A stretch of DNA of 29,809 nucleotides from a virus. Numbering within the stretch: the first letter of the stretch is position 1; each line of letters opens with the position of its first letter. The stretch spans positions 1-29,809 of the IMG/VR virus record IMGVR_UViG_3300044953_000253; one strand, written 5' to 3'. This document shows positions 578-23,608 of this stretch, one piece after another. The notes beneath the pieces were generated by a model. That model saw only the letters and a list, made by a program, of their open reading frames with translations, was not told the DNA's origin and did not search any database. The translations under genes were made by a program, and so were the position numbers.

Positions 578-591
578 TTATTCCCCCTTTT

Positions 592-1274: not shown

Positions 1275-1397
1275 TTAAACCAGCCTACCAAGAGCAAAGC
1301 CAATGATTAAAGATATTATGCAGCAAATAGGAATAAGGCTTTGAGCCCTTTTCCATCTTCTGTAAAAAATATCTTGAGGAGCTCTAATCCCGCCCAT
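1275..1397 (-). CDS. Small single-pass membrane protein, 40 aa
   Basis: A 41-codon frame fits exactly between two genes. Its ATG overlaps the upstream stop (TAATG at 1399-1395), and its TAA is followed immediately by the next ATG. The protein starts MGGIRAPQDIFYRRWKRAQ, a basic cytoplasmic-type N-terminus, and continues into a hydrophobic helix at about residues 20-40 (LIPICCIISLIIGFALG). The perfect packing between coupled genes supports it being real. Function is unknown. A membrane peptide inside a capsid gene cluster is unusual. Confidence 0.62.
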   Translation of the reverse strand: MGGIRAPQDIFYRRWKRAQSLIPICCIISLIIGFALGRLV

Positions 1398-1690
1398 TAT
1401 CGCCACTCCCTTATAAGTAGTTTCTTATTCCCCGTTCCACCGTGAATTGCAAAAACATCGCCTAACCAAAGGTTAGCAAAGTCTATTTCGTAGGAAAAGC
1501 CGTCCGCGGATATTCTCACCCCATCATCCACGGCTGCGGCGCTTCCGAAGGATAGGAAGATATTTTCATCTGAATTGTTTATAAACTCAGCAAATTTTCT
1601 TTGCTCATTTGCAGCTAATACAAGCTGAGAGGTCGTTGTTACGTTAAACGGCGCACTTAGAATCGTTCTAATCGGTCTATGACCAAACAT
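1397..1690 (-). CDS. Small virion-type protein (decoration-like), 97 aa
   Basis: The ATG at 1690 has an AAAGG ribosome site upstream. The protein visibly aligns with the 94-residue protein two genes upstream. Shared features in order are A-x-NE-x-RK, an N-x-S turn, an LSFG/IAFG strand, GV then an A-x-G-x-x-E-x-D turn, a GD-x-x-x-I segment and a final EW plus one residue. The two are therefore paralogues. A single beta-sandwich domain of this size in a late operon after the major capsid gene suggests a capsid decoration or fibre-base subunit, but this is inference. Confidence 0.72.
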   Translation of the reverse strand: MFGHRPIRTILSAPFNVTTTSQLVLAANEQRKFAEFINNSDENIFLSFGSAAAVDDGVRISADGFSYEIDFANLWLGDVFAIHGGTGNKKLLIREWR

Positions 1691-1702
1691 GTTTAGCCTT
1701 TC

Positions 1703-2134
1703 TTAAAAGAAAGGGTAACCAATAAGCCTTTCAATTACGAAAGTGCTAAGCGCTCCGACCGTGTATGCTATTAAACAAAAACAAGCGAGTTTCTTTTTGT
1801 CAAGGGTCTTTACTTGTACCTCTTTGACAACTTCTTTTACAACTTCCTTAATTACAGGATCGCTCGCCTTTGAATTTGGTAAATATACAACCTTGCCCGA
1901 TTGCTGTTTAAGTTCCCCTAATTCTTTTAGTGTCTGGTTTAATCTTGCAATCAAAGAGGGATCGTCTTTGTATATGATCTTCTCTTCGATCTTTATAACT
2001 TCCTTGATACCACTTCTCTTGATTGCCTTTTCTTTGACTAATTCCATCTCCAAAAAGGCAATCTTCTCTTTTACTTCCTCTGGTACTTCGAAAACTACGG
2101 TCTTGATTGGGTTGTTTACTAGCTTGCGTCCCAT
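1703..2134 (-). CDS. Tail-anchored coiled-coil membrane protein, 143 aa
   Basis: I place the start at the ATG at 2134, where GGAG sits at a good distance in the end of the upstream gene. A longer frame from 2176 would overlap that gene and lacks this signal. Residues 15-100 are highly charged and helical, with heptad-like runs (VKEKIAFLEMELVKEKAIK) and a short repeat EVVKEVVKEV near residue 105. A hydrophobic segment around residues 115-137 forms a probable C-terminal membrane anchor. It is neither a recognised spanin nor a holin. A membrane-anchored coiled coil between decoration-type genes is odd; a role in entry, lysis or assembly at the membrane is possible but not shown. Confidence 0.68.
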   Translation of the reverse strand: MGRKLVNNPIKTVVFEVPEEVKEKIAFLEMELVKEKAIKRSGIKEVIKIEEKIIYKDDPSLIARLNQTLKELGELKQQSGKVVYLPNSKASDPVIKEVVKEVVKEVQVKTLDKKKLACFCLIAYTVGALSTFVIERLIGYPFF

Positions 2135-3245: not shown

Positions 3246-4197
3246 TTAAACAACGAAGTTTCTTACCCGACCAACGGAGTTGGGCTTTGAACAGAAGAGC
3301 TCAAAGTACCCTCCATAACGCGCCGCAAGAACATCTTTGTTGGGATCCCTGAGCAAAATGGTTCCGTCATCGTCAAACCACCCAAAGTCTTCACGCATAA
3401 CTAGCTGCATAAATTTTGTGTTTAGGAAGTAAATCTCATTATCTTCGCACATTTGGGAGGAAATCATGGCAAATGGACCCTCATCGCCCATTAGCTCGAT
3501 TCCTTTAAAGCCGATCTTTGTATCCGACGATTTTACTTCTAACACGTTGTATCGTTTGTGCTCTTCAGCCTGAGACTTAAGAGCCGCTTTGGTAGCGTGT
3601 GAACATACAGCCAAGTTAGGAGACATTCCCAACTCATCTTCTAGGTCACTAACGATTTGGTTTAAATCGTCAAACGCAAGAGTGTTTCCGTTTAGGTTGT
3701 TTACGATACCGCGGAACTCTGGGTTAGAGCTCTGGCTGATACCATAAAGCGTTCCAGCGGAAACTGGAGCAATCTTCTTTAGTCCAACGCACTCTTGGTC
3801 TTTGTTACCTTCCCAGTAAAGAAGATCGGCAGCTGTAGGCTGTACAGCGGATCCAGTGGACACAAGTACAAAACTAACGGTTGTGGTCGTAAAGGAAACA
3901 ACCTTAGCGGTCAATTGATAGGTTCCGCCAGAGGTAAAGAAGTCAATCTTTGCTCCTCTTGGGAAGTATCGCTTTTTGTACTTAGGAGCGTTTGTTCCAG
4001 AGGTTGACATTGTAACAACCCATGGAGACGCCTCGGTTCCAGCGCCGGAAGAAAGAGCGGAAACTTCGCCCAACTTGCCGGATCCGTCTCCGAATAGAGC
4101 TCTTTCGATCATGTGTAAATTGTACCCTTCTAGTACACTTTCAACTTCATCGATTGTTACCTTGGCGAAGGCGCCGCGGTCATTTCTGCTTGCAATG
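3246..4197 (-). CDS. Major capsid protein, exon 2 (C-terminal 316 residues)
   Basis: This is the second part of the capsid gene. It completes codon 100 (AT from exon 1 plus C here, Ile), then continues I-A-S-R-N-D-R-G-A-F-A-K and on to the stop at 3246-3248. The spliced frame is 299 + 952 = 1251 nt, exactly 417 codons, giving a 416-residue protein of normal size for HK97-fold capsid proteins. The segment EREAIIASRNDRGAF created by splicing matches the usual pattern of such capsid proteins, in which a helix (REAI-x-AS) precedes a charged turn. Residues from about 129 include HMIERALFGDGSGKLG and a conserved-looking C-terminus. Read alone, this frame would start only at the internal Met 129 and lack its N-arm. 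Confidence 0.85.
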
Positions 4198-4434
4198 CGT
4201 TTTGTTACCGTGTGGGCTTTTTATCCCTCACTTCTAGTCCTTTCGTTCGGACTAGCTCAGCGTACATTTTCAACCCGTTTACTGGTTGTCTCCGACTCTT
4301 GGGATCTTTTCTTCCAGATCCTACGCGTTACGGTCGATTAACTCCTTTAATTCGACCTCGGTATTAGCATTTCAGCTTTCACCGATTTTCGGAGATTCTT
4401 AAACATAGCTGCTTACGCAGCTAGGCGACCATTG
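4198..4434 (-). ncRNA. Probable self-splicing group I intron (237 nt, no endonuclease ORF)
   Basis: This segment separates two pieces of one capsid protein. At the 5' site, exon GCGAT pairs with intron GTCGC to form P1, with the required U.G wobble at the cleavage site. The P1 loop CAATG is fully complementary to the first bases of exon 2 (CATTG), a perfect P10. The last intron base is G (omega-G) at 4198, and removal restores the frame exactly. Internal helices include a P2-like hairpin with a GTAA loop (4407-4422), a 7-pair long-range helix resembling P3 (4389-4395 with 4289-4295), and hairpins at 4332-4357, 4302-4321, 4272-4287 and 4234-4255. I could not confidently assign P7 by eye, so the subgroup is open. 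Unspliced RNA stops at a TAA at 4413-4415, truncating the protein at 106 residues. Confidence 0.87.
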
Positions 4435-4733
4435 ATCGCTTCACGCTCATACTCAGCGGTGGCATAGGCTCTAACTGCGCTGAATATCGCACTGTCTCTA
4501 GGAGCAGATACAGGCTGAGGCAAGTTTTGTCCGCTTGCTCTGTAACCTAGACCTACTGCGCTTCCGAAGCGTACAGGTTGAACGAATTGCTTTCCTACAA
4601 AGTCAACTTTCTTGTTTTTCATCAAGATAGCCGCCAAAGGTGACTTAGCGTTTACCAATGATTGATCTGCGCCCGATCCATAAAACTCTTTAAATAGCGC
4701 ATTTTCCATGTTTACTGCTCTAGGCTGTGCCAT
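4435..4733 (-). CDS. Major capsid protein, exon 1 (N-terminal 99 residues plus 2 nt)
   Basis: The ATG at 4733 follows AAAGGA after the scaffold gene, the classical scaffold-to-capsid order. The protein begins MAQPRAVNMENALFKEFYG and includes KKVDFVGKQFVQPVRFGSAV and GLGYRASGQNLP, a pattern seen in phage major capsid proteins of the family found with P22-like and other podoviral heads. The reading frame is open only to ATAEYEREA plus AT of codon 100. The genomic frame then runs into intron sequence (NGRLAA, stop). Joined to exon 2 it gives a complete 416-residue capsid protein. Confidence 0.87.
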
Positions 4734-4751
4734 AAAATTCCTTTCTTATGT

Positions 4752-5522
4752 TTATGCTCTACCGGCTAGACGCTTTACATCTTCTAGTGTCATTCCTTTA
4801 CCGCTCGATGTACTCGAAGGGGGAGGAGTGATTACCGGAGAGCGTTTCTTGTTTTCTTCCAGCTTGGTTTCAATTCTTTTTTGCTTTTCTTGTGTTTCGG
4901 ATCGGAGATCTTGAGCAGCAAGAAATGCAACGTCCTCAAGGGAGACATCAAGGCCATTATTTAAAGCCCTTCTGTATTCATCTCTTACAAACGTCTTAAA
5001 CAGTTTAGAGTTAAAATCGGGATACTTTTCAATAGCAGCATTGAGCTCCTGCTCAATGGCTTGTTTCTCCCGTTCAATATCTTCCCGCTCTAATCTATCT
5101 TTGATTTGAGCGAGTTCATGTCTTGTCGTTTGTAGTTCTAAGTCCCTTGGATCAATTTCTTGCGCCTGGGTATCCTGAGGAGCCGCTGTGCGCTTTTGAC
5201 CTGTGATAACTTCCAGGAAGCCGTCGGGGTCTCGCATCGCAGCTTCTCTCATCTGCGTATAGATTTCCCGTTGTTTCTTTTCGAGGGAAGCGGCCTTTTG
5301 CATGGCTTGTTGGCCAGCTTTGCCTAGTTGGGCGTACCGTTTTGTGGTGTCCCAGTCCCACTCTTCCTCAACCCCATTGATCTTGAACTTTTCTTTTCCA
5401 GACGCAAAGGGAGAGTATTTTTCTTCCTGCTGCTGTGGAGCCTCATGCGTTGTTTCTTGTAGAGTCGATTGCTCGGTGTCTACTGTTGTTCCTGCTGTGG
5501 TATCTACAACTTCATTTTCCAT
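4752..5522 (-). CDS. Capsid scaffolding protein, 256 aa
   Basis: The chosen start is the ATG at 5522 with AAAGGA about ten bases upstream. A TTG nine codons earlier is possible but has no ribosome site. The N-terminus is acidic and glutamine-rich, followed by a short beta segment (KFKINGVEEEWDWD) and an ARYAQLG-like turn (RYAQLGKAGQQAMQKA) typical of phage scaffold proteins. Long charged helices with coiled-coil character follow (about 70-225), and the C-terminus is basic (LEDVKRLAGRA), as in the capsid-binding tail of scaffolds. Position between the large terminase and the major capsid gene strongly supports the role of guiding procapsid assembly and then leaving the shell. Confidence 0.83.
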   Translation of the reverse strand: MENEVVDTTAGTTVDTEQSTLQETTHEAPQQQEEKYSPFASGKEKFKINGVEEEWDWDTTKRYAQLGKAGQQAMQKAASLEKKQREIYTQMREAAMRDPDGFLEVITGQKRTAAPQDTQAQEIDPRDLELQTTRHELAQIKDRLEREDIEREKQAIEQELNAAIEKYPDFNSKLFKTFVRDEYRRALNNGLDVSLEDVAFLAAQDLRSETQEKQKRIETKLEENKKRSPVITPPPSSTSSGKGMTLEDVKRLAGRA

Positions 5523-5603
5523 TGTTCCGTCATCCTTTTCTATTGTCAAGCGTGATTGCTTGAGTGACTATATATTAGCTAATCGTTTTTCTGCTTTGTT
5601 GAG

Positions 5604-5624
5604 GCCGGAGCTCCTTACTCCGGC
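5604..5624 (-). terminator. Intergenic hairpin after large terminase
   Basis: A perfect seven-pair inverted repeat (GCCGGAG against CTCCGGC, 7-nt loop) lies ten bases after the large terminase stop. There is no T-run after it on either strand. It may be a stability or processing element that separates terminase from scaffold and capsid expression. Confidence 0.4.
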
Positions 5625-5633
5625 TTCAAACCT

Positions 5634-6881
5634 TTACCCGAAATCCTGTGAGTAAGTGTCGTATCGATTAGGTCTGTATTCCTCCTCATCGTCCTTTTTC
5701 TTCATTTCAATCTTGTTGTTGTTATAGGCGTATAAGAGAGCGTCGATTAAGTGATCGTTTCCATCTTGCTCCCACTCGTAAGCGGCCATTTCTTTTAGGA
5801 GCATTTTGCAGTTGTCGGCAATCTTAAGCCGTCCTGCTTTGAGCGCGTTTACTAGGAGCAGGAGCCTAGCCTGTTTGTCGTACTTGCCCGCTGGGGTCAT
5901 TGAGAGCCCAATGTTATCGTACTCTGCGATAACTTGCGGGTCGATGTCAGCGATTGTCTCGTTAATGATAAACGGCTCTTGTTTGGTGATGATTTCTTTG
6001 TGTTGGTGAATGAGTAGCTTTGTTTGCTTGTACTCGGAATAAAGGAGCCAGTAGCCTTTCCTATCGTTGTAGGCAAGCCACACGCAAGCCGTTGGGTCTG
6101 GGGAAAAGCCGTGGTCTACTCCGCGAATGTGGTAGGAGTGATCTAGATCCGCTTGGTCCCAGCGCTTTGTTGTGTAGGATTCAGCAGGGAGAGCGAACAC
6201 CATACCCTGGAAAGTGACCCACTCGTTTTTGATCTCTTGCCGGTAGAGGGGATCGTCCTCTGATTCATACTCTTTAAGTATTCTTTGTTTACCCTTTTCC
6301 GAGATGTAAGGGTTATCGAAGATTGTGAACTCTTGAACCAGGTAATCGTCCTCGTTTCTCTTTGCTCGCTCGACTAGCTCGAAGAAATGGTTTTTCCCAC
6401 GCTTAGAGGAGCCGAACATTATTTGCCCGTTGTAGTCGGCAATCATCGGCACTAGGATTTGTTTAACTGTGAGCTCCGGGTCTCTCTTCCAGAGAGCGTA
6501 CTCATCGGCAACAACCACTCGATATGCTTTACCTGCTAAGTTATCGACTTTCTCTACTCCGCGGATACGGATCACGGCCTTACTTCTAAGGTGCTCGGCT
6601 TCCATCTTTGACTCGTTAATCTTCCAGTTCCTATTGTTTAGTATGCGAGCGTATAGCTTGGGCCACATGATTTCCCTGGCTGATTCTTGAGTGGAGGCTA
6701 AGTACAGGCATGGCTTTTTATACTTCTCAACGTCTTCAATGAGGATTTCAGCAAAGAAGTCTGATTTCCCTGCGCGCCTTCCAGCTGGGAGAATAACAGT
6801 AAGCCCGGCCTTATATCCAAGATAAGCTAGGCACTGTTTATAATGAAATCGACCGCCTAAGGCATCAACCAGTTTTTGCAC
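5634..6881 (-). CDS. terL: Terminase large subunit (DNA packaging ATPase/nuclease), 415 aa
   Basis: This is the motor that pumps DNA into the procapsid through the portal and cuts concatemers. The ATPase half has a Walker A (PAGRRAGKS, 32-40) and a Walker B with catalytic acid (VVVADE, 122-127), with a coupling motif GSS at 157-159. The nuclease half has the RNase H-like acids: D256 in RGVDHGFS, D312/D314 in ADIDP and D380 in HLIDALLY. The length fits compact terminases. The start is a GTG at 6881, overlapping the small terminase by 17 nt, which suggests coupled translation. The ribosome site is weak. Confidence 0.93.
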   Translation of the reverse strand: MQKLVDALGGRFHYKQCLAYLGYKAGLTVILPAGRRAGKSDFFAEILIEDVEKYKKPCLYLASTQESAREIMWPKLYARILNNRNWKINESKMEAEHLRSKAVIRIRGVEKVDNLAGKAYRVVVADEYALWKRDPELTVKQILVPMIADYNGQIMFGSSKRGKNHFFELVERAKRNEDDYLVQEFTIFDNPYISEKGKQRILKEYESEDDPLYRQEIKNEWVTFQGMVFALPAESYTTKRWDQADLDHSYHIRGVDHGFSPDPTACVWLAYNDRKGYWLLYSEYKQTKLLIHQHKEIITKQEPFIINETIADIDPQVIAEYDNIGLSMTPAGKYDKQARLLLLVNALKAGRLKIADNCKMLLKEMAAYEWEQDGNDHLIDALLYAYNNNKIEMKKKDDEEEYRPNRYDTYSQDFG

Positions 6882-7272
6882 GGAGCTCTTTCAGTAGTTC
6901 TTTTGCAGTTTCTTCGGTAATCACTTCAGCTTTAGGCTTTTCCTCGACTACAGGAGCGGGCGCCTCTGACATCTTTAGTTTAGCCTTAAGCATAAACATA
7001 ACTAATTGACGATCTTTCTCTCTAAGGGCGAGCTCCATGCCTGTGTGTCGCAGTTGTTCGTCTAGCTGCATATCAGCAATCTTGTCTATTTTTGTCCGAA
7101 TGTCAGGATATTTGTCGAAGTATTCGTAAAAGGTTGAACGTGAAATCTTTAGTGTTATCGCTATGTTACGCCAGGAAGTGCCGAAAGTTCGCTGTTCTAT
7201 GAGCCATTCAGCAAAGGCGTCATGGTCTTCGATGGGCCAAGAGGGAATTTTTGCTTTGTCAACTGGTTCCAT
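6865..7272 (-). CDS. terS: Terminase small subunit, 135 aa
   Basis: The ATG at 7272 follows AAAGGAGA. A helix-turn-helix is visible at about residues 33-60 (SWRNIAITLKISRSTFYEY), followed by a helical oligomerisation region and a Pro/Glu/Lys-rich linker (about 105-120) leading to a charged C-terminal helix. This layout and its position directly upstream of the large terminase fit the DNA-recognition subunit that selects phage DNA for packaging. It is the first gene of the minus-strand packaging and capsid block, so late transcription of that block probably starts just upstream. Confidence 0.85.
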   Translation of the reverse strand: MEPVDKAKIPSWPIEDHDAFAEWLIEQRTFGTSWRNIAITLKISRSTFYEYFDKYPDIRTKIDKIADMQLDEQLRHTGMELALREKDRQLVMFMLKAKLKMSEAPAPVVEEKPKAEVITEETAKELLKELRAKTG

Positions 7273-7354
7273 GCGTCTCCTTTCCTTGAGATAGCACTAA
7301 ATACAGTTTATTTATGGTTAACGTGTAACCTGTTTTCTGTAGCTTTTCTAATCT

Positions 7355-7379
7355 TTGAACGCACCGAGCCTTGCGTCAA
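7355..7379. promoter_or_regulatory. Divergent promoter/operator candidate between packaging genes and rusA
   Basis: The 132-bp gap between two divergent genes contains a near-palindrome: TTGAACGCA at 7355-7363 and TGCGTCAA at 7372-7379. The arms match apart from one extra A. Each arm doubles as a -35-like box, TTGACG for the minus strand and TTGAAC for the plus strand. The corresponding -10 boxes are weak, so this may be an operator or an activator-dependent late promoter. Confidence 0.38.
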
Positions 7380-7425
7380 GTAAAAATGTTAACTTTTCCT
7401 CTAATTGTTTGCTACTTTTAACGAT

Positions 7426-7905
7426 ATGGACAAAACCATTCTCATTCAATCTTTCCCGTTTCCGCCTAGCATCAATGAGGCGTATAGGAACGTGCCTAAA
7501 GTTGGGCGCGTTAGTTCAGCCGTTTTGAAGGAATACAAGGCGGAGGTTGAGAGATGGCGCCTGGCTAATTTAACGGGCCTAGAAGCCTATAAGCAAATGA
7601 TAGCCGCGGAGTGGGGGGAAAGCCCTTCCTTTCAGATCGACGCCTTTCTAGTGTGCAAGCCTGAGCGCATATGGACGAAGCAGAATAAGCCTAAGCGCTT
7701 CGACGTTTCAAACCGTATTAAATGCTTTGAGGACCAATTCTGTCCCCTATTTGGCTTTGACGATAGAGACGTTTGGTCTATCTCTATGAGCAAGGTTATG
7801 GGAGAGCGTGAGTGCGTCATTGTCATGCTCAGTGCAACGGTTCCCCAGACAGCCGTTGAGGTCCTGGACGTGCTCTCTGTTGGCTCGCCCAAGAAAGTTC
7901 AATAG
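7426..7905 (+). CDS. rusA: RusA-like Holliday junction resolvase, 159 aa
   Basis: RusA enzymes cleave Holliday junctions and branched DNA during phage recombination and before packaging. The sequence shows the family N-terminus (PFPPSINEAYRN, 11-22) and the acidic core K-x-RFDVSNRIKCFED (90-103), followed by FDDRDVW (111-117) with D93, D103, D112, D113 and D115 as likely metal ligands or DNA contacts. The start is taken as the ATG at 7426. A TTG seven codons earlier is possible and neither has a clear ribosome site. It stands alone on the plus strand, away from the main recombination cluster, and its last 7 nt overlap a convergent small gene. Confidence 0.85.
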   Translation: MDKTILIQSFPFPPSINEAYRNVPKVGRVSSAVLKEYKAEVERWRLANLTGLEAYKQMIAAEWGESPSFQIDAFLVCKPERIWTKQNKPKRFDVSNRIKCFEDQFCPLFGFDDRDVWSISMSKVMGERECVIVMLSATVPQTAVEVLDVLSVGSPKKVQ

Positions 7906-8096
7906 CCTTTCCTGAACCCGAAGAGATCTAGCTGCTCTTCGGCGGGCGGGGATGGTTTCTTTCCTTGCTGAACCTTACTGTCACTTTTGGCCAGCTGCGA
8001 CTTGGCCTCGCTTGCTGCGCCAAATATCTCTTCGCACATTTGCAGCGCCCGAATGAGCGCGGGCGGGAGTCTTTTGCTTACGCTTGCCTTTTTCAT
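7899..8096 (-). CDS. Small protein with beta-clamp-binding motif, 65 aa
   Basis: The frame starts at an ATG at 8096 without a strong ribosome site and ends inside the last codons of the convergent rusA gene. The protein has a basic N-terminus, a helix-forming middle (about 12-45, ALIRALQMCEEIFGAASEAK), a flexible Lys/Ser/Pro linker and a C-terminal EEQLDLFGF (53-61). QLDLF matches the established QL[SD]LF consensus with which polymerases and other factors dock on the bacterial sliding clamp. Location beside the origin-like region and primase supports a replication or repair role. Existence is moderately certain; function is inferred from the motif alone. Confidence 0.55.
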   Translation of the reverse strand: MKKASVSKRLPPALIRALQMCEEIFGAASEAKSQLAKSDSKVQQGKKPSPPAEEQLDLFGFRKGY

Positions 8097-8110
8097 TTGT
8101 CGCTTTTTTT

Positions 8111-8135
8111 CAGCAAGTGTTCACACCACTTGCTG
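8111..8135. repeat. Perfect 9-bp inverted repeat
   Basis: CAGCAAGTG and CACTTGCTG are separated by seven bases. The adjacent T-run lies on the wrong side for a plus-strand terminator (it precedes the hairpin), so an operator or origin element is more likely than a terminator. Confidence 0.6.
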
Positions 8136-8163
8136 TAAATGTTTAATTTTATTAAGTAAACTG

Positions 8164-8183
8164 GTGTTTAGTACCCTAAACAC
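8164..8183. repeat. Perfect 8-bp inverted repeat
   Basis: GTGTTTAG and CTAAACAC flank a four-base loop TACC. The right half contains ACCCTAAA, which recurs at 8202-8209 as part of a shorter palindrome (ACCCT-AA-AGGGT, 8202-8213). The repeats could be binding sites for an initiator or regulator. Confidence 0.6.
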
Positions 8184-8307
8184 AAAAGCACGCACATGTG
8201 AACCCTAAAGGGTATCACTAGAGGTATAAGGGTTTGAGGGACGGATGTAAAGGGGAAAAGTGATAACGCGGTGTTTATTGTTTTAGGGGAAAAGGGATAT
8301 ATATATT

Positions 8308-8427
8308 ACCGACACCAAATTCACCGACACATGTTTTTTTTGGTCTGTAAGGTTATGATATGATTACGTTTACACGCCGCGCATTGCGTCGGTTTTTGCT
8401 CACCGACACGTTCACCGACACCGACAC
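8308..8427. repeat. ACCGACAC iteron-like repeats (two clusters)
   Basis: The octamer ACCGACAC occurs at 8308-8315, 8323-8330, 8402-8409, 8414-8421 and 8420-8427; several copies extend leftwards to TTCACCGACAC. A one-mismatch inverted copy (GCGTCGGT) lies at 8386-8393. The clusters sit on either side of a T8 run and end five bases before the stop of the primase-helicase gene. Confidence 0.72.
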
Positions 8428-8432
8428 ACGTT

Positions 8433-10649
8433 TTAATGATCCTGACTTAGAACAAGCAATTCCTGGGTTTTTCCCTTATTTTCGCTTTGCGCAAGGGTTA
8501 TGGTTCCGCGTTCCAGCATTGTTGAGACCAACTCTTTCATCTCGCTGGCTCGAAGATTTAAGTCTCTGCATATTTGTCGCTTCGGTAGGGTATGGCCGGG
8601 CGACTTCTTTAGCTTTTCAAGTATTTTGATAATCTTTCTCTCTCCGCCGTCCGAGCTAGATTGCGCTAACAGGGATCTAGATTGCTCATTTGCCGTGAAT
8701 ACAATCTCCTTTGCCAGGCTTACATGCTCTTCCGTAATGGTGCGCTCGCCGTTACAAGCGGCTATTATGTAAGTAATCCGCTCAATCATCATTCCGGCAC
8801 GCGACAAAATTGTCGCTTGGATCACGTCTCCGCCTTTAGTGAGCTCCTTTTCCTTTGTATAGTTATCGCGGTCTATATCCTCTAGGAGTTGCTCCGCCTT
8901 AGGCGAGAGGGTAAGAGGAGATCTAACCGGCTTGTGCAGCCCTGTGTCTTCAATAGGCTTTCCGAAGATGTCCTTACCTACCATTGAATAAGCTGGCAAA
9001 ACTTCGTTTATGCTCTTTGTTATATAGTCCATTGCGTAGGTTAGGTCGTATCGCTGATTGCCTAGGTACTCAGCCGCCGGGTCCCCCACAAAATACATAA
9101 AGCGGCCCATAAAGCCGGAGTACAGGGTTTCCGGGCTTGCGTACTTAATCATGATCTCATTCTGAATTGAGGCCAGGATTGTAATAGACGGATCATAGCA
9201 AGCGCCCTTTAAGCCGGTCGTTTTAGTATAGTGCCCGCCGTACCAGCCTCTTGTGGTGTATAGCTTGTTTAAGCAGCCCTCAACCCTAGACTTCACGTCC
9301 GAGTTCTTACTGTTAAAAGCCCTGAACATTTCACCAAATTCATCAATGAGATCAATTCTTGTGCGCTGCTCTCCTAGTGACTCAACTATTGCCGCATCGG
9401 AGGAGTAATTGCTTAAGCCAAGGAAGTTATTCTCTCCCAAACCCTCTTTGCCGAATAGCTTATATATAAAGACGTATGGAGCATTTTTGCCAATGCCTGA
9501 ATTTCCAACGTTTAGAGTGTAAAGGCTTGTCTGTACAGCACTCCCGTTTAGAGAAAAGCGGTTTGCACATAGAACGCTTCCAATGCTTAGAGCTCCGCCA
9601 AGGGCCAGGGCGTCCTGCTTTGTTCTACTGATAGAAATGATCGCATCTTTGAACAGTTTTAAAATGCCCCCAACTTCCGGGAAACTCTTTGGGGGCAAAA
9701 TAATTGCCTCTTTCTCTACTTTTCCTGTAAACTCCACGACCGGAAGAGCCGTCGGTATCTCAACGGGCTCCCTTTTCCTAGAATGATTTCTGTTTACCGT
9801 CTCAAGTAGGTTTGCATAGAACTTGAGCGCATTTGAGTATGGATCTGCTTTACAGTCCGATCTTGTTTTATCTTCGAAGTAAGAAATGCCTAGGTGATTT
9901 TTCTTATCGTAATCCAGTAATTTCTCAACTGCCTGGTTAATGCTCGTTTTTCCCGCAATTAAGCCCATGGCAAGGGTCTTCAGCCTATTCTGCGAGCCGT
10001 GTGCGCAGCGTGTTTTATCCGTTTGAGGAAATGGGCCCCCAGTGAGGGGGGAAGTCGTTACGCTTGCGTTTGTTATTCCCTCTCCAGAAATAAAACTAAA
10101 TGCGTTTAGGTCTTCAATTGTGAAGTCCGGTATATCGGACAGATCAAAGGATTCAATTGAGGGGCCTCTCCACTTGTAGGGCTCTTTTGAGTCGGGGTGA
10201 ATACTGGGAGGAATAACTAGATATTGACCAACGGCTCTTAATTCAATTCCCTCGATTGGTTTCTTGGAGGGATCAATAGAAAGACTCTTATTTTGCCTCT
10301 CCCTTGCTGTATTAGTTAATCCATCTTTATTTATAAACACGGCTCCCCAGCCTCTTACGCCGATTCTCTCTAAGGGGGAACGTCTAGCCGCCTTTTGTAT
10401 GTCCTCGCTGATTGAATCTATATCTAAAAGAATAATGTTATTTGAAGCGGGTCCAGCCACCAGGCCGATACCATATTCTGGAAATTTATATTTATTGAAA
10501 AACTCTTCGGCTTTCCCTTCGGGCATCCCATCAATTGCCCAATGATTAAAGTCCTTTACAAACGTTGCCTTTCCCTTAACCGGGATCACAACATAGCCCA
10601 TTTCGCTCAGTTCTATGAAAGGGAGGTGTTTACTTTTGTCAAATGCCAT
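8433..10649 (-). CDS. Primase-polymerase / DUF3987-type helicase fusion, 738 aa
   Basis: This is probably the central replication protein, which primes and unwinds DNA. The N-terminal third is a bifunctional primase-polymerase (Prim-Pol) domain: GIGLVAG (60-66), the catalytic acids in LLDIDS (D76, D78) and the S-x-H motif in PPSIHP (S149, H151). The region from about 320 is a DUF3987-type P-loop ATPase with Walker A VGNSGIGKNAP (G382-K388) and Walker B LIDEFGE (D436, E437). The residue after the Walker A lysine is Asn, not Ser/Thr. A winged-helix-like tail (about 665-738) may bind DNA. It lies alone on the minus strand beside an iteron-rich origin-like region. Confidence 0.86.
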   Translation of the reverse strand: MAFDKSKHLPFIELSEMGYVVIPVKGKATFVKDFNHWAIDGMPEGKAEEFFNKYKFPEYGIGLVAGPASNNIILLDIDSISEDIQKAARRSPLERIGVRGWGAVFINKDGLTNTARERQNKSLSIDPSKKPIEGIELRAVGQYLVIPPSIHPDSKEPYKWRGPSIESFDLSDIPDFTIEDLNAFSFISGEGITNASVTTSPLTGGPFPQTDKTRCAHGSQNRLKTLAMGLIAGKTSINQAVEKLLDYDKKNHLGISYFEDKTRSDCKADPYSNALKFYANLLETVNRNHSRKREPVEIPTALPVVEFTGKVEKEAIILPPKSFPEVGGILKLFKDAIISISRTKQDALALGGALSIGSVLCANRFSLNGSAVQTSLYTLNVGNSGIGKNAPYVFIYKLFGKEGLGENNFLGLSNYSSDAAIVESLGEQRTRIDLIDEFGEMFRAFNSKNSDVKSRVEGCLNKLYTTRGWYGGHYTKTTGLKGACYDPSITILASIQNEIMIKYASPETLYSGFMGRFMYFVGDPAAEYLGNQRYDLTYAMDYITKSINEVLPAYSMVGKDIFGKPIEDTGLHKPVRSPLTLSPKAEQLLEDIDRDNYTKEKELTKGGDVIQATILSRAGMMIERITYIIAACNGERTITEEHVSLAKEIVFTANEQSRSLLAQSSSDGGERKIIKILEKLKKSPGHTLPKRQICRDLNLRASEMKELVSTMLERGTITLAQSENKGKTQELLVLSQDH

Positions 10650-10682
10650 GTTACCTGCTTTTTATTAAGTATTCTCTGTTGC

Positions 10683-10723
10683 AACCGCTGGGTTATTATC
10701 TGTCATAGCCCGGCGGTTTTTTT
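10683..10723 (+). terminator. Rho-independent terminator facing plus-strand transcription
   Basis: AACCGCTGGG (10683-10692) pairs with CCCGGCGGTT (10709-10718), ten pairs including one U.G, followed by an unbroken T-run ending at 10723. The run overlaps the stop codon of the minus-strand regulator gene. No plus-strand gene lies immediately upstream, so it may stop antisense or read-through RNA before it enters the regulator and early promoter. Confidence 0.72.
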
Positions 10724-10910
10724 ATTTAACCCAGGAATACAAGTCTACTTCGCCCTTGGTATACTTCTCAATCTTGTAAGCATTGGCAAGGCTTGGCTTT
10801 GTCTTTCCAGTCATCCAACTATATACAGCATTTGGAGACACTCCAGCTTCTACTGCAAAGCGGTAATGAAGTTTTTTGTTCTTTTTCAAATAAGCGTTTA
10901 GCTTTTTCAT
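10722..10910 (-). CDS. Cro/CI-type helix-turn-helix regulator, 62 aa
   Basis: The ATG at 10910 follows AAAGGAAAA. The protein is almost entirely a single DNA-binding domain. A basic N-terminal helix leads into FAVEAGVSPNAVYSWMTGK (about 18-36), a typical turn with recognition helix, then PSLANAYKIEKYTKGEV, the pattern of YdaS/Cro-like repressors. There is no peptidase or oligomerisation domain, so it is more Cro-like than CI-like. It is divergently transcribed from the early recombination block, with a 52-bp intergenic space, and probably controls that block and itself. No integrase is visible, so lysogeny cannot be claimed. Confidence 0.82.
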   Translation of the reverse strand: MKKLNAYLKKNKKLHYRFAVEAGVSPNAVYSWMTGKTKPSLANAYKIEKYTKGEVDLYSWVK

Positions 10911-10938
10911 TTGATTTTTTCCTTTATTGTTTTATGTT
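10911..10938 (+). promoter_or_regulatory. Candidate early promoter
   Basis: TTGATT (10911-10916) and TATGTT (10933-10938), 16 bp apart, each match four of six sigma-70 consensus bases. They sit in the divergent gap beside the Cro-like gene and just upstream of the ribosome site of the first early gene. The site is the natural place for repression by the small regulator. Confidence 0.38.
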
Positions 10939-10962
10939 TTTGGGACAGGAGAAAACTTAAGC

Positions 10963-11694
10963 ATGAAAGTTCAATCAACTCAACAAATAAACTCGCACAA
11001 AATTAAACTTGCCGTGTATGGGCAATCAGGCGCGGGGAAAACAACCGCTGTTGCTGGCCTTCTCGCAGCTGGTTATAAACCAATTGTTGCCAGCTTCGAG
11101 GGAGGTCTTCTCTCTCTGCATAATCACAATATTCCTTTCATCGACGGAACACGCGACGATAACGATATTGAGATTGCCAAAGAGAGCCGAGCCGAAAGAC
11201 TAAAGGAAATATTTAAGTTCCTGCGAACGGACGAAGCTAAAAAGCAATATGACACAATTGTTTTAGATTCGCTTACTGAAATAAGCCAGTGTCTATATGA
11301 CAAGCTAAAAATGAAATATCCAGACCGGAAAGACTCTTTGGTTTTGTTCGGCGAACTTGGGCAAGCGACAAGAGACGTGGTTAAGATCTTTAGAGACCTA
11401 GATTACCACGTTGTCTTTACCATTCTAAGCAAGATCGAAAAAGACGACTCAGGCCGAAGGTTTGTAGGCTTTGACCTAATCGGAGGCATTTCCGATAAAC
11501 TTCCACAGTTTCTAGATATTGTTACTTACTTAAAAGTAGATAACGACGGCAAGCGCAGTTTTATCTGCGCACCAACGGACGCAATTCTAGCTAAGGATAG
11601 ATCCGGCAAGCTAGACGCGGTTGAATATGATTTGGGCACTATGTTCAATAAAATAAACAAAAAAGGAGAAAATAATAATGTTCGATCTAAGTGA
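10963..11694 (+). CDS. Sak4-like recombination ATPase, 243 aa
   Basis: This is a RecA-fold nucleotide-binding protein of the phage Sak4/AAA_24 type, which promotes single-strand annealing together with an SSB. Walker A is YGQSGAGKTTA (19-29) and Walker B is TIVLDSLTE (98-106). A VVFTILSKIE strand and a GFDLIGGISDKLPQFLDIV segment follow, as in this family. The start is the ATG at 10963, preceded by GGAG; the frame extends 12 codons upstream without a better site. The last 17 nt overlap the SSB-like gene and contain its ribosome site, so the two are co-translated. Context with DUF669 and YqaJ genes strengthens the assignment. Confidence 0.86.
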   Translation: MKVQSTQQINSHKIKLAVYGQSGAGKTTAVAGLLAAGYKPIVASFEGGLLSLHNHNIPFIDGTRDDNDIEIAKESRAERLKEIFKFLRTDEAKKQYDTIVLDSLTEISQCLYDKLKMKYPDRKDSLVLFGELGQATRDVVKIFRDLDYHVVFTILSKIEKDDSGRRFVGFDLIGGISDKLPQFLDIVTYLKVDNDGKRSFICAPTDAILAKDRSGKLDAVEYDLGTMFNKINKKGENNNVRSK

Positions 11695-12103
11695 AGTTGA
11701 ATCAGTAACAAATGAAGTTATCCCGGTAGGCAAGTATATTTGCACGGTGTCTGACGCCATTGTGAAGGACACGAAGGACAGGACGGGAGAATATATTGCT
11801 GTTAGCCTCAGGGTAGCCCACGGAGGTTATGCTGGCCGAGTTATTTTTCATAACTTTCATATTAAAAACACAAATCCAAAGGCCACGGGGATTGGGTTAG
11901 GACAGTTGAAAACAATGTTGGAAAAAATGGGGATGGGGCTAACGTTTGAAACTCCTTTCGACTGCTGTGAAGCCATTTTTGGAAAAAGTGTTGGGGTGCG
12001 TACAAAGATTAGGCGGGATGAAACCTACGGAGATAAGGCCGAGGTTAGTAGCTTTTTCCCAGTAACAGAAACAGCAGAAGAAGAAGAAGAAGTTTCTTTT
12101 TAA
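11678..12103 (+). CDS. DUF669-family single-stranded DNA binding protein, 141 aa
   Basis: It begins at an ATG with AAAAGGAG at ideal distance, inside the end of the Sak4-like gene. The order of features is a short N-terminal helix, an OB-fold-like beta segment (VGKYICTVSDAIVKDT through YIAVSLRVAHGGYAGRVIFHNF), a helical insert (LGQLKTMLEKMG) and a final acidic tail EEEEEVSF. That pattern is typical of DUF669 proteins, which act as phage SSBs, and acidic tips are common in SSBs for recruiting partners. It would coat single strands for the Sak4-like annealing protein and the exonuclease next door. Confidence 0.82.
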   Translation: MFDLSEVESVTNEVIPVGKYICTVSDAIVKDTKDRTGEYIAVSLRVAHGGYAGRVIFHNFHIKNTNPKATGIGLGQLKTMLEKMGMGLTFETPFDCCEAIFGKSVGVRTKIRRDETYGDKAEVSSFFPVTETAEEEEEVSF

Positions 12104-12117
12104 TTTTAGGTGGGAAT

Positions 12118-12984
12118 ATGAACTGGTTACTAGACGAAGATAAAAACGCTCAAGTACAAAGATCAAGTGAATGGCATGAATTTCGCCGCAAGCATATTGG
12201 AGCAAGCGACGTTCCGGCCATCATGAATGAATGCGACTTTAAAAAGCCGCTAGATTTGTGGCTTGTAAAAACGAAGCGCAAAGAGCCGTTTGCCGGGAAC
12301 TTTGCAACTCAACGCGGTATCGACGCCGAACCAGCTATTAGAAAACTATATGAGGAGCTCATGGGCGTTCCCCTTGAGGCTCCCGTTTTAGAGTTTAAGG
12401 AATGGCCAGTTCTTTCCGCCTCCCTGGACGGACTAAATAGAGAGGCTGAGATAGTAGTAGAGTTTAAGTATCCCAGCGCGGAAAAACATAAACAAGCCGT
12501 ATTAGGCAAAGTTCCCAAAACATACGCCGCCCAGCTTCAGGCTCAAATGTTAGTTACGGGCTACGACACCGCCCACTATGTTTCCTATGATGGCACTGAC
12601 ATTGCCGTTGTTGTTGTTAAAGAGGATAAGGAGTATCAGGCCAGGATTCTGGAAGAGTGTAAGAAGTTTTGGAACTACGTCGAGACGGATACCGAGCCGC
12701 CTAGCGAGTATATTGAGCTAACCGGAGCCGATCTTGAGCTAATGGCGAAAGAATACATTAGCGTTGTTTCAACTATCAACGAACTAAAAGAAAAGCAGGA
12801 TGAACTAAAAAAGGCGATACTTGCCAAAACGGAAGCGAGTAAGGCAAAATTTTATGGCCTCCGCTTGCTTCGTACAAGCCGCAAAGGAGCGGTTGACTAT
12901 TCTAAAGTGAAGGAACTTAGCGGGGTTGACTTAGAAGTGTACAGAAAGCCGTCTATCACTGTTGAGACTCTAGAGGTTCTATGA
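12118..12984 (+). CDS. YqaJ-like viral recombination exonuclease, 288 aa
   Basis: The protein resects double-stranded ends to give single strands for annealing, like lambda Exo. The PD-(D/E)XK core of the YqaJ family is complete: SSEWHEFRRKHIGASD (17-31), RGIDAEP (E71), SASLDGLN (D104), VEFKYP (E115, K117) and the helix YAAQLQAQM (136-144) that packs on the active site. The C-terminal 90 residues form charged helices, as usual in phage members. It starts at an ATG 14 nt after the SSB gene with AGGTGG upstream. Its stop overlaps the start of a tiny membrane protein gene (ATGA). Confidence 0.9.
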   Translation: MNWLLDEDKNAQVQRSSEWHEFRRKHIGASDVPAIMNECDFKKPLDLWLVKTKRKEPFAGNFATQRGIDAEPAIRKLYEELMGVPLEAPVLEFKEWPVLSASLDGLNREAEIVVEFKYPSAEKHKQAVLGKVPKTYAAQLQAQMLVTGYDTAHYVSYDGTDIAVVVVKEDKEYQARILEECKKFWNYVETDTEPPSEYIELTGADLELMAKEYISVVSTINELKEKQDELKKAILAKTEASKAKFYGLRLLRTSRKGAVDYSKVKELSGVDLEVYRKPSITVETLEVL

Positions 12985-13091
12985 CCTGGCAAAACTTGGC
13001 GATCTATTACATTGTCGGCGGGATCATGTTTGTCAATATTGTTATAATTATTTGTGCCGTTAGTGACTATTTTTGGAGGGGAAAAAAATGA
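12981..13091 (+). CDS. Tiny single-pass membrane protein, 36 aa
   Basis: A 37-codon frame is bracketed by two ATGA overlaps, with the exonuclease upstream and the transglycosylase downstream, which argues for a real, translationally coupled gene. It starts MTWQNLAIYYIVGG and is hydrophobic to about residue 27 (IMFVNIVIIICAV), then ends in a short polar, basic tail (FWRGKK). One membrane helix with a cytoplasmic positive tail is likely. Position before a lipoprotein transglycosylase suggests a membrane partner or holin-like role, but no family is recognised. Confidence 0.65.
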   Translation: MTWQNLAIYYIVGGIMFVNIVIIICAVSDYFWRGKK

Positions 13092-13681
13092 AAAACGTAT
13101 CAATTGGAGCGGTAATAGGGAGCATTTTAACTTACACGTTGCTAAGTTGCACAACGGTCCCCCCTCCCACGCCGCAAGAGGTTAAGAAGTCGTACCCCGC
13201 TCTCGAAGGATGGAAGCCCGAATGGTCGCCCATTGTAGTTGACGCCCTTGAAACTTATGGCAAAGAGCTCCTAGCCTTTAATCCAAGAGATAGATTGGAG
13301 TGGTGTTTTGGGGAAGACAATAAGCTGAACTATTTGCGGCTAATACAGGCCATTGCAAAATTTGAATCTAACTTTGATCCCTCTACAACCTATAGAGAGA
13401 CCTTCCATGACCGCCAAGGGCGAAATGTTATTTCCACTGGAATCATGCAAGTCTCTGCTGAATCCTGCAACGGCTACGGTATGAGTAAGAAACTCACACG
13501 GTATGAGGAGCTCCTAGACGTTCACGCAAACATGGAGTGTACAGTGCGGATTATGAATAAATGGATTCGTGAGCATGGCGTGATTGCCCAAGAGCCCAAA
13601 AGGGGAACGGCAATCTATTGGAGCGTGATGCGCGAGAGCGGCAAACGAAAGTTTGTTAAGCAAATAATGTGTAATAAATAA
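13088..13681 (+). CDS. Lipoprotein lytic transglycosylase (SLT-like), 197 aa
   Basis: The start is the ATG at 13088 with GGAGG upstream. A signal sequence (MKNVSIGAVIGSILTYT) ends in a lipobox LLS-C21, so the mature protein is probably lipid-anchored facing the periplasm. A proline-rich linker (PPPTP) follows. The catalytic domain has the SLT pattern: AIAKFESNFDPS with the likely catalytic E93, STGIMQVS (116-123) and a later helix with CTVRIMNKWI. It would cleave the glycan strands of peptidoglycan. It is placed in the early block, far from the lysis genes, so wall modification after entry or superinfection exclusion are possible alternatives to lysis. Confidence 0.82.
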   Translation: MKNVSIGAVIGSILTYTLLSCTTVPPPTPQEVKKSYPALEGWKPEWSPIVVDALETYGKELLAFNPRDRLEWCFGEDNKLNYLRLIQAIAKFESNFDPSTTYRETFHDRQGRNVISTGIMQVSAESCNGYGMSKKLTRYEELLDVHANMECTVRIMNKWIREHGVIAQEPKRGTAIYWSVMRESGKRKFVKQIMCNK

Positions 13682-13690
13682 GGAGAGAAA

Positions 13691-13915
13691 ATGGAAAATA
13701 CTAATGAATTAAACGTAAGGCCTGAGTTTGCAGTACATATGCTCAATCAAGAGGGCAAAGAAAAAGCCGCTAAAATTGCAATTGCGTTTCACAATCTTTT
13801 AGAGGAAATCTCGTCAATTTGTCCAGAAGGCAGAGAAATGTCTATTGTAAAAACAAAACTTGAGGAGGCTTCGTTTTTTGCCAAAAAAGCCATGGCAAAA
13901 AATAACTGCCAATAA
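13691..13915 (+). CDS. acb2: Acb2/Tad1-type cyclic nucleotide sponge (anti-CBASS/Thoeris), 74 aa
   Basis: The ATG follows AAGGAGAG nine bases after the transglycosylase gene. The protein is a small helical protein whose C-terminal half reads FHNLLEEISSICPEGRE (33-49) and KTKLEEASFFAKKAMAKN (54-71). This matches the Acb2 domain signature as I know it: a helix, C-P-x-S/G-R-E, then TKLEEA and a second helix with A-x-x-A-x-A. Known members sequester cyclic nucleotide signals of CBASS (and some of Thoeris), blocking effector activation. The ligand pocket cannot be verified by eye. Location in an early block among tiny accessory genes fits anti-defence. Confidence 0.72.
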   Translation: MENTNELNVRPEFAVHMLNQEGKEKAAKIAIAFHNLLEEISSICPEGREMSIVKTKLEEASFFAKKAMAKNNCQ

Positions 13916-13984
13916 TTTCCAGAGGGTTTTACCCAAGCAAGTCGGATATATTTGAGCAGACTTATGAAGTTGTGAGGAAGTAAA

Positions 13985-14170
13985 ATGAAAGAGATGACAC
14001 GGGAAGAGTTATTGGAGGAGATAAAAATCCTCCAACAAAATTATCTAGGCTCAGAGGTAGATCGGAAATACTTCGAGCATGAACTTGTTCCCCAACTTCT
14101 TAAGGAGATTGAGGAGTTAAAGGAACAACTTAAAAAATATAATGAATTCCGACAAGAGACAAACTATTAA
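13985..14170 (+). CDS. Small coiled-coil protein, 61 aa
   Basis: Starts at an ATG with GAGGAAG upstream, 69 nt after the Acb2-like gene. The whole protein is predicted helical with heptad hydrophobics (LLEEIKILQQNYLG and LLKEIEELKEQLKKY). No family, catalytic motif or membrane segment is recognised. Early accessory position suggests a host-interaction or phage regulatory peptide; function unknown. Confidence 0.6.
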   Translation: MKEMTREELLEEIKILQQNYLGSEVDRKYFEHELVPQLLKEIEELKEQLKKYNEFRQETNY

Positions 14171-14183
14171 GATTAAACAAGAT

Positions 14184-14211
14184 TTTACCTGGTAAGGGGC
14201 TGTTTTATAAT
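14184..14211 (+). promoter_or_regulatory. Sigma-70-type promoter candidate inside the early block
   Basis: A perfect TATAAT (14206-14211) lies 16 bp after TTTACC (14184-14189, four of six consensus bases). It starts the run of tiny genes from 14249 and would give them a transcript independent of the recombination genes. Confidence 0.55.
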
Positions 14212-14248
14212 GAATAAGGAGAGCAATTTATAAAGGGAGAGGAACAAC

Positions 14249-14650
14249 GTGGGTGATTACGTTAAAAACTATGAATCAGAAGCAAAGTTTTCTGACCTCA
14301 AGGGCCAAACAATTATTGAATTAGATGGATTACAGAAAGATTCAGATTACGTTTCTGTGAAAACAAAAGAGGGGAAAGAATATCAATGGTGTTATCACGA
14401 CGATTGCTGTGCAAAATGCAGCATAGAGGATATTACTGGAGACGTTGAAGACGTTATTGGAAGCGAAATTCTTTTAGCAGAAGAGGTTTCGCAAAAAGAG
14501 CTTAAAGAAAGTGACGAAGGAAGTTTTACTTGGACGTTTTATAAGCTGAGTACAATCAAGGGGTCGATCACAGTTAGATGGTATGGGTCATCTAATGGTT
14601 ACTATTCTGAATCGGTCTCGTTTGAGGATATGCCAATTATTGAGGAATAA
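14249..14650 (+). CDS. DUF7448-like phage protein, 133 aa
   Basis: The start is a GTG at 14249 behind GGGAGAGGA; no in-frame ATG is near. The sequence follows the pattern of a common phage family: FSDLKGQTIIEL, KTKEGKEYQWCYHDDCCAKC (about 38-57; an HDxDCC-like segment), SIEDITGDVEDVIGSEIL, and a beta-rich C-terminus. The paired cysteines and histidine could bind metal, though this is not established. Such proteins are usually in accessory early regions and have no firm function. Family assignment is from memory of its motif and is moderately certain. Confidence 0.68.
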   Translation: MGDYVKNYESEAKFSDLKGQTIIELDGLQKDSDYVSVKTKEGKEYQWCYHDDCCAKCSIEDITGDVEDVIGSEILLAEEVSQKELKESDEGSFTWTFYKLSTIKGSITVRWYGSSNGYYSESVSFEDMPIIEE

Positions 14651-14821
14651 ATGAATAAAGAAACAGTAGAAACAATTAGAGACATTCTTTTATGGGTGCA
14701 ACTAGCAATATCTGTTGTTGCCGTTTTCTTCGCGACTCGATTTGTAATAGAAGCACACGGGTTTAAAAAGGCGGTTAAGAATTTAAAGGGCGTAAAAGAT
14801 GAATCATCGCGAACCAATTGA
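14651..14821 (+). CDS. Small single-pass membrane protein, 56 aa
   Basis: The ATG at 14651 directly follows the previous stop (TAA-ATG) and shares its GAGG ribosome site. A polar start (MNKETVETIRD) leads into a hydrophobic helix at about residues 12-33 (ILLWVQLAISVVAVFFATRFV), then a basic tail (FKKAVKNLKGVKD). The stop overlaps the next gene by 23 nt. This is typical of tiny phage membrane peptides; function unknown. Confidence 0.6.
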   Translation: MNKETVETIRDILLWVQLAISVVAVFFATRFVIEAHGFKKAVKNLKGVKDESSRTN

Positions 14822-15008
14822 TTATGTGCTTGTTATTGGTTTTGCAATACTGTTTTTAGTAGCTGTTACGATGATTTTATCAATAGTCATTTCTGCATAT
14901 TCAAGATACTCATACTGCAAATCGAAAGGCGTTCCTTACGGTATTTGCAGCGAATACATAAGGGAAGAATTTGCAACACAGAATATTAAGTTGAGGGTGA
15001 AAGAATGA
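14799..15008 (+). CDS. Small membrane protein, 69 aa
   Basis: It starts at an ATG inside the end of the preceding gene, with AAAGGG about eleven bases upstream. One strong membrane helix spans about residues 9-33 (YVLVIGFAILFLVAVTMILSI). A cysteine-containing polar tail follows (SYCKSKGVPYGICSEY). No family is recognised. The gene is part of a train of overlapping tiny genes. Confidence 0.62.
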   Translation: MNHREPIDYVLVIGFAILFLVAVTMILSIVISAYSRYSYCKSKGVPYGICSEYIREEFATQNIKLRVKE

Positions 15009-15238
15009 ACGAGCAAACTCCATTCTTATGGAAGCAAACAAGAAACAGTTGGGAATACTTCCTTGAAGAGTCACATGACTTTGACGGTTGCTTGAATTAT
15101 GACGTGAAGACACAACTAAATGAATTAGGGAGCAAAGGGTGGGAATTGGTTTCTACTGAAGTAAAAGAATATCACACGATTGGCAGGAGTGTACCAGTTC
15201 GGAACATGGTTATGTTTTTCAAAAGGGTAAAGGAATGA
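15005..15238 (+). CDS. DUF4177-like small protein, 77 aa
   Basis: The start overlaps the previous stop (ATGA). Key segments are NSWEYFLEES near residue 14, a helix TQLNELGSKGWELVSTEV (about 36-53) and a final strand VMFFKRVKE. This is the pattern of DUF4177 proteins, where a short antiparallel sheet packs on a helix containing LNxLGxxGWELV. The domain is widespread in phages and bacteria without a defined reaction. The inference is structural only. Confidence 0.68.
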   Translation: MNEQTPFLWKQTRNSWEYFLEESHDFDGCLNYDVKTQLNELGSKGWELVSTEVKEYHTIGRSVPVRNMVMFFKRVKE

Positions 15239-15474
15239 TTAGGGACCACAAAATCAAGGTCATTAGCAACTGGGGAAAAGAAACGGTATATCTTTGTTTT
15301 GAAGAGCCGCAAAAAGAAATACAACTGGAACCAGAGCAGGACTTTACTTTCTGTGAGACGTGCTATGATAAACCCATTTCGTATTATTGCCCGACTGGTA
15401 AAGGGGAAGTAAGAATAATGGAGTACGTTTCCTACAATTGTGGCGGGGTTTACAAGGTAGGTAAAAAGGAATGA
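15235..15474 (+). CDS. Hypothetical cysteine-containing protein, 79 aa
   Basis: The ATG overlaps the previous stop (ATGA), so translation is coupled. The protein is beta-rich and acidic with five cysteines, among them FCETC (about 39-43), YC (51) and NCGG near the end. Spacing could suit a metal site but no known zinc-finger pattern is complete. No family recognised. Confidence 0.58.
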   Translation: MIRDHKIKVISNWGKETVYLCFEEPQKEIQLEPEQDFTFCETCYDKPISYYCPTGKGEVRIMEYVSYNCGGVYKVGKKE

Positions 15475-15575
15475 GCAACGAATCACTAATCTATAAAGCC
15501 ATTTGCTGGCTAATCGAAAAGAGTAAGTATCTTAATCCTGAAATTTTAATACGAGAATGGATAGAGAAGAAATGA
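15471..15575 (+). CDS. Micro-protein, 34 aa
   Basis: A 35-codon frame is linked by ATGA overlaps on its 5' side and on its 3' side with the next gene, with AAAAGGA upstream. The sequence (MSNESLIYKAICWLIEK, ending IREWIEKK) is amphipathic and helical with several tryptophans. The exact fit in the overlap chain supports it as a gene. Function unknown. Confidence 0.55.
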   Translation: MSNESLIYKAICWLIEKSKYLNPEILIREWIEKK

Positions 15576-16156: not shown

Positions 16157-16186
16157 TAGCCTAAAGCGTGTATAAACACAACCAGT

Positions 16187-16217: not shown

Positions 16218-16223
16218 TTGCCC

Positions 16224-16328: not shown

Positions 16329-16364
16329 TTATTATTTGTCATTGATTTCCATCACTATTATGGA

Positions 16365-17153: not shown

Positions 17154-17157
17154 CACT

Positions 17158-17598: not shown

Positions 17599-17601
17599 TT
17601 T

Positions 17602-23599: not shown

Positions 23600-23608
23600 A
23601 ATTCTCCC

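Follow-up and report, generated by a model that had tools for sequence, protein, structure and literature searches.

The DNA analysed here, referred to as the window, comprises a whole IMG/VR virus record of 29,809 bp, in which positions 8097-8432 lie between two ORFs on the minus strand, a 738-aa primase-helicase (8433-10649) and a 65-aa ORF (7899-8096). Since genes for terminase, portal and major head proteins are encoded in the window, it belongs to a phage and not to a satellite island. The sole close relative found, IMGVR_UViG_3300044957_000484 (34,259 bp), is 99.9% identical to window 4667-16649 and extends 9116 bp beyond the window end, adding 7148 bp of new sequence followed by 1968 bp that correspond to window 1-1968 at 98% identity. 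Due to this 1968-bp overlap, the two records represent circular permutations of a genome of approximately 36,957 bp. Their differences are unevenly distributed: 10 out of 12 over 4667-16649 are packed into 66 bp (window 12859-12924) at the 3' end of the YqaJ exonuclease gene, resembling a small recombination patch, window 1-1968 with its 98% identity is a locally diverse stretch, and the sole four differences over 15000-29809 cluster at 29621-29801. Additionally, two ORFs on the minus strand 300 bp apart, 3246-4112 and 4413-4733, match one major head protein family, covering its C-terminal residues 129-387 and its N-terminal residues 10-74, respectively, as in a split or interrupted capsid gene. 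Sak4, DUF669 and YqaJ genes adjoin the primase gene, and together with a RusA-like resolvase ORF (7405-7905, plus strand, in-frame ATG at 7426), which scores below the Pfam cut-off and has no match in the phage collection, they fit a replication-recombination block.

Within 8097-8432, exact copies of ACCGACAC start at 8308, 8323, 8402, 8414 and 8420, all on the plus strand and the last two sharing 2 bp. They form two clusters 71 bp apart, 8308-8330 and 8402-8427, the latter adjoining the primase stop codon, with the last copy ending at 8427, 6 bp from the gene end at 8433, and all five lying outside the primase ORF, directly downstream. Between the clusters lies a T8 run (8334-8341, plus strand), and outside them a 12-nt AT-only tract of the TATATATA type (8297-8308), a candidate unwinding element, as well as two AGGGGAAAAG repeats on the plus strand (8251-8265 and 8285-8299, 93% over 15 nt). 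An inverted iteron-like unit, ACCGACGC, with one mismatch (8386-8393, minus strand) may be due to chance. The preliminary description had reported the five units in two clusters that flank the T8 run and stop just before the 3' end of the replication gene, the repeated AGGGGAAAAG, the AT-only tract and the lack of a gene in these 336 bp, all of which we recovered, and the observation is confirmed. Of the two inverted repeats, one is a perfect 8-bp hairpin (8164-8171/8176-8183, minus strand) that forms a weak terminator-like site on the primase strand, and the other, of 13 nt (8107-8119/8127-8139), contains one mismatch, its inner 9 bp being perfect. Two small ORF calls overlapping the stretch on the plus strand, 7987-8208 and 8360-8629, are antisense to other genes and were rejected as not credible.

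The five sites are all the exact copies of ACCGACAC in the window, compared to 0.28 expected, and none of 100 shuffles contained five, nor did any of 5000 dinucleotide shuffles of 8097-8432 match the observed repeat score or the five copies. Using the 8-mer score, the top 250-bp windows are located here with a score of 6, followed by 4 at position 28001 (1459 windows, covering the window and the 7148 bp closing the circle, L012), whereas the best score in 60 whole-window shuffles was 3; by a 7-mer pair score, however, 8097-8432 is not the top of the window. A reading as chance repeats in a non-coding gap finds some backing in the one-mismatch count, as 15 ACCGACAC-like copies in the whole window against 10.4 expected are unremarkable, but given the exact copies and the shuffles we consider its probability negligible. 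All five copies are retained in IMGVR_UViG_3300044957_000484, and one extra copy, on the minus strand, occurs within the 7148 bp beyond the window. The absence of any second ACCGACAC cluster, with this single further copy, speaks against the repeats being a secondary element, i.e., copy-control or incompatibility iterons or a hotspot for Sak4/YqaJ recombination, with the main origin elsewhere. The Sak4, DUF669 and YqaJ genes next to the primase would suit such an element, and P4 offers a precedent by having a separate iteron region (crr) in addition to its ori; nevertheless, we hold this to be very improbable.

Concerning duplex stability, two segments rank among the least stable of the window, namely the 100 bp from 8273 (lowest 2%) and the 50 bp from 8136 (lowest 0.65%), but the DNA between the clusters is only partly AT-rich (AT fractions of 0.71, 0.50 and 0.46 in 24-nt blocks). 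An exact TTATNCACA DnaA box is absent from both strands of the window, which fits a phage-encoded initiator, and the looser TTWTNCACA has one match per strand in the window, neither inside 8097-8432. An Rfam search gave no match, and a large (~100 nt) stem-loop was not found 3' of the primase, where the best short-loop inverted repeat has 13-nt arms. Cumulative GC skew, which had been suggested as a check on the origin, does not mark the site: on the circle, the raw skew has its minimum at 35798 and its maximum at 16612, the detrended skew at 5712 and 17107, respectively, and the skew tracks gene direction, with no residual signal after correction for it (P 0.59). GC skew is therefore uninformative, neither supporting nor refuting an origin.

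The primase-helicase carries a Prim-Pol domain (residues 16-164) and a DUF3987 domain (residues 419-661) according to Pfam, with no TOPRIM match, and PHROGs labels it as DNA primase. A profile built from five sequences matches the Prim-Pol structure of pRN1 ORF904 (E 6e-5) and, at its C-terminus, weakly the winged helix of RPC6 (E 0.04). Residues D76-I77-D78, S149-I150-H151, G387-K388, D436-E437 and R516 are invariant in 11 sequences and fit the Prim-Pol metal and histidine motifs and Walker A and B; judged by sequence, the primase and ATPase motifs are intact. The model of the whole protein is poor (pLDDT 38) except for the C-terminus, of which the last 79 aa modelled alone reach a pLDDT of 85 with the order H-E-H-H-E-E. 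Their closest solved folds are winged helices, several of them DNA-bound (8cli, E 7e-4; Z 12.2), pointing to a winged-helix domain at residues 669-738 (8433-8645, minus strand), which we propose as the iteron-binding part. Such a predicted fold would suit the recognition of double-stranded DNA and would equally suit a repressor. Winged helices are in fact commonest in repressors and, on the minus strand, 8097-8432 is located upstream of the 65-aa ORF, so that the repeats might be operators through which a regulator, or the primase itself, controls leftward transcription into 7899-8096 and beyond. We consider this unlikely, as no sigma-70-like promoter was found in 7880-8700 and arrays elsewhere follow primase genes while the genes downstream vary; moreover, autoregulation and origin function are compatible with each other.

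The 65-aa protein on the other flank (P0002) contains QLDLF near its C-terminus, which we take to be a clamp-binding motif, and ends in EEQLDLFGFRKGY. Across the window and the circle-closing L012, a QLDLF-like motif occurs only in this ORF, barring an unlikely 35-aa frame. The search for relatives in phages returned one match (E 2), which was set aside, and the clamp-motif protein is a single unreplicated case. In phages C7 and L3, a beta-clamp subunit is annotated 5' of the primase.

The only close relative, being 99.9% identical, is uninformative on conservation of the repeat sequence; in diverged relatives, the position of the array is kept and the repeat sequence is not. Searches of viral contigs with TerL, the primase, P0003 and A2 yielded only the near-identical record and the contig of L015, and no diverged relatives of the phage were found in genome contigs. 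The L015/L021 contig, reached via an exonuclease search, shows the same order of primase, divergent Sak4, DUF669 and exonuclease; its primase locus L021 is the nearest diverged relative (32% identity of the primase) and has a dense array of 9-bp TTGAATTTC/GAAATTCAA units, direct and inverted, between the primase stop and the next small ORF. The spaced ACCGACAC pattern itself occurred in at least 120 stretches of viral contigs, but none of the 80 loci examined carried a relative of five primases, hence ACCGACAC alone finds no kin. In Moraxella phage Mcat11, GCAGACA units start at the primase stop codon and recur in another group 200 bp further on, TATATATA lying in between. Uniting ACCGACAC and GCAGACA into one motif was considered and dropped. 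The annotated attL of Mcat11 (3801-3813; L113:3552-3813) starts no more than a few bases from the last GCAGACA, so the attachment site and the origin candidate adjoin. Another possible reading of the repeats is a packaging (pac) site recognised by the small terminase subunit. Against it, the array of Mcat11 adjoins the primase stop, its terminase genes being 2.3 kb further on, and the comparative signal across the panel came from anchoring on the primase. Although terS and terL are 0.8-2.8 kb from 8097-8432 and the circular permutation of the two contigs is compatible with headful packaging, we regard a pac site as a marginal alternative.

Further examples come from Vibrio phages 1.207.B and 033B, in which AGGG(G)AA units surround TATATATA tracts 3' of the primase, and from Loktanella phage pCB2051-A, whose 512-bp primase-3' gap (L019:4782-5292) holds inverted repeats of 41 nt (93%) and 56 nt (79%) and is a candidate stem-loop origin. 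In Roseobacter phages CRP-901/902, by contrast, the next gene follows approximately 10 bp after the primase, leaving no gap, and in H40/1, C7 and L3 the largest gap is 5' of the primase. Repeats were also observed at some distance: Dickeya phage Sucellus has a strong array of eight ATATATAC copies, with a score of 37, that is 1.3 kb away from the primase on its 3' side and not next to it (L110, ~7000-7250), and in the CRP-902-like contigs L062, L056 and L061 ATTTATTG/ATTTATGG repeats are found ~1.2-1.6 kb 3' of the primase and not adjacent to it, while in L080 and L052 ATTTATTG is adjacent.

The association was quantified in two sets of primase loci. The first consisted of 28 loci, namely 21 out of 22 dereplicated ones (L048 was dropped due to a misassigned ORF of 27 aa) and seven more phages; before dereplication, 80 out of 94 loci had the stop codon and 300 bp beyond. 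In this set, for which the tests are partly circular since L021, L019, L108 and the window had been inspected before they were written, a score of at least 3 was found just 3' of the primase in 8 out of 28 loci compared to 7 out of 336 background blocks (P 2e-6), and in 5 out of 25 when the window, L052 and L114 were removed (P 6e-4); 20 loci had no such array. The 8-mer score misses degenerate arrays, e.g., the AGGGAAA repeats beside TATATATA in Vibrio phage 033B, which scored 0. TATATATA occurred 38 times in the 500-bp 3' regions, against 3.1 expected, and was present in 7 of the 28 loci. A gap-matched test gave z of at least 5 in 6 out of 10 primase-3' gaps and in 0 out of 62 other gaps (P 1.3e-6), the six being L021 (27.1), L108 (19.0), the window (9.8), L114 (7.3), L115 (7.1) and L019 (5.4), of which L114 and L115 are close kin; L080, L052 and L119 contributed no primase-3' gap, as the simple ORF caller fills some gaps with spurious ORFs.

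The second set comprised 24 new loci, 23 with the stop codon in view. Here the gap test was not significant (2 out of 5 primase-3' gaps against 4 out of 39 others, P 0.13), and primase-3' gaps had a lower median z than the other gaps. A rank test, chosen after the first set had been seen and assuming all positions to be equally likely although gaps are more repeat-prone, used the 20 second-set loci whose ORF reaches 500 codons and is followed by 300 bp or more. In 8 of them the top-scoring repeat window was located immediately 3' of the primase (0.81 expected, P 5e-6), as it was in 6 out of 17 with kin collapsed (0.68 expected, P 5e-5). The corresponding words were GTTAACA (seven copies, L243), GAGGTTA (nine, L249), GCGGTAC (five, L255) and CTGGACA (four, L263). 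Applied to the first set, the same test gave 6 out of 28 loci against 1.28 expected (P 0.0013) and, with the window, L052 and L114 removed, 4 out of 25 (P 0.029). Two of these second-set loci from uncultured phages are origin candidates in their own right, L249 with GCGAGGTTA units in two clusters ~210 bp apart and L255 with GCGGTACA units in both orientations, each just 3' of the primase. Overall, the association of repeats with the 3' side of primases looks real from these comparisons but not universal, given the exceptions of CRP-901/902 (no gap) and of H40/1, C7 and L3 (largest gap on the 5' side).

Together, the ORF list, the repeat scores and the shuffles lead us to propose 8097-8432 as a replication origin, and we consider it probable that this is the origin of the phage and that the adjacent primase-helicase is its own initiator. 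The iteron-type origin named in the preliminary description is the best-supported reading, given the different repeat arrays 3' of related primases and the predicted C-terminal winged helix; binding, melting, priming and the status as main origin are what we infer. In the proposed mechanism, the winged helix would bind the ACCGACAC iterons just past the stop codon of its own gene, helicase rings would assemble on the two clusters at 8402-8427 and 8308-8330, and the AT tract at 8297-8308 with its neighbours would open. The helicase would then unwind the DNA, the Prim-Pol domain would prime, and phage and host proteins would subsequently elongate. More tentatively, and with slightly less than an even chance in our estimate, Prim-Pol/DUF3987 primase-helicases might form a broad class of self-contained phage initiators, with a fast-evolving iteron or stem-loop origin past the stop codon and a private repeat for each winged helix. 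If so, gene and origin would move as one portable replicon, and the origin of many uncultured phages could be read from sequence. Should primase-3' gaps hold the origin, each genome would name its initiator-binding site, and the last 80 residues of the primase together with the repeat would form a testable pair. The occurrence of iteron arrays in some phages and of large inverted repeats in another means that the switch between both can be studied. The most useful outcome is a cheap and testable rule, with clear exceptions, by which origins might be located in uncultured phages that have this type of primase. Among open-licence PMC papers, none that we found describes iteron arrays 3' of the phage Prim-Pol/DUF3987 primases as a general feature of this class, which is weak evidence for novelty.

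The arrangement recalls several known replicons. For SaPI Rep and SCCmec Cch2, the origin iterons immediately follow the helicase gene and are read by the C-terminal, dsDNA-binding domain of its product (PMC7581432). Gram-negative PICIs have an AT-rich region between two sets of iterons, and a rep-ori assay with cloned DNA has been reported for them (PMC6092414). The phage shares with SaPIs and PICIs the iterons directly downstream of a rep-type gene, its C-terminal DNA-binding domain being predicted, and differs from both in combining a putative DUF3987 helicase with an archaeo-eukaryotic Prim-Pol. Unlike PICIs, it is a whole phage, one that encodes a terminase, a portal and head proteins and is known from sequence alone, and its AT-only tract is beside the clusters and not between them. 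For pRN1 ORF904, an essential origin was located just 3' of the gene, and its authors suggested in 2014 that stem-loops are what Prim-Pol/SF3/winged-helix proteins act on, including that of Bordetella phage BIP-1; the pRN1 origin and the one proposed for BIP-1 rely on a large stem-loop, and origin iterons were not found in that study (PMC4234260). The primase-helicase here likewise joins Prim-Pol, a putative helicase (DUF3987) and a predicted winged helix, but its gene is followed by iterons and only 8-13 bp hairpins, while pCB2051-A, whose primase belongs to the same family, carries large inverted repeats instead, which resemble the stem-loop origins put forward for pRN1 and BIP-1. In the P4 alpha protein, a winged helix binds origin repeats, followed by unwinding and priming (PMC4234260), a scheme that by analogy we propose here as well, with a Prim-Pol in place of the TOPRIM primase of P4. 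Phage lambda offers a further likeness in its iterons and AT-rich DNA read by a phage initiator, as we assume here. Its iterons lie inside a replication gene, namely O. PMC11447400 places the lambda iterons inside the helicase gene, in contrast to the phage here, in which all five are outside the replication gene. Overall, the best reading of this layout, by analogy, is that it would work like the SaPI/PICI, P4 and pRN1 replicons.
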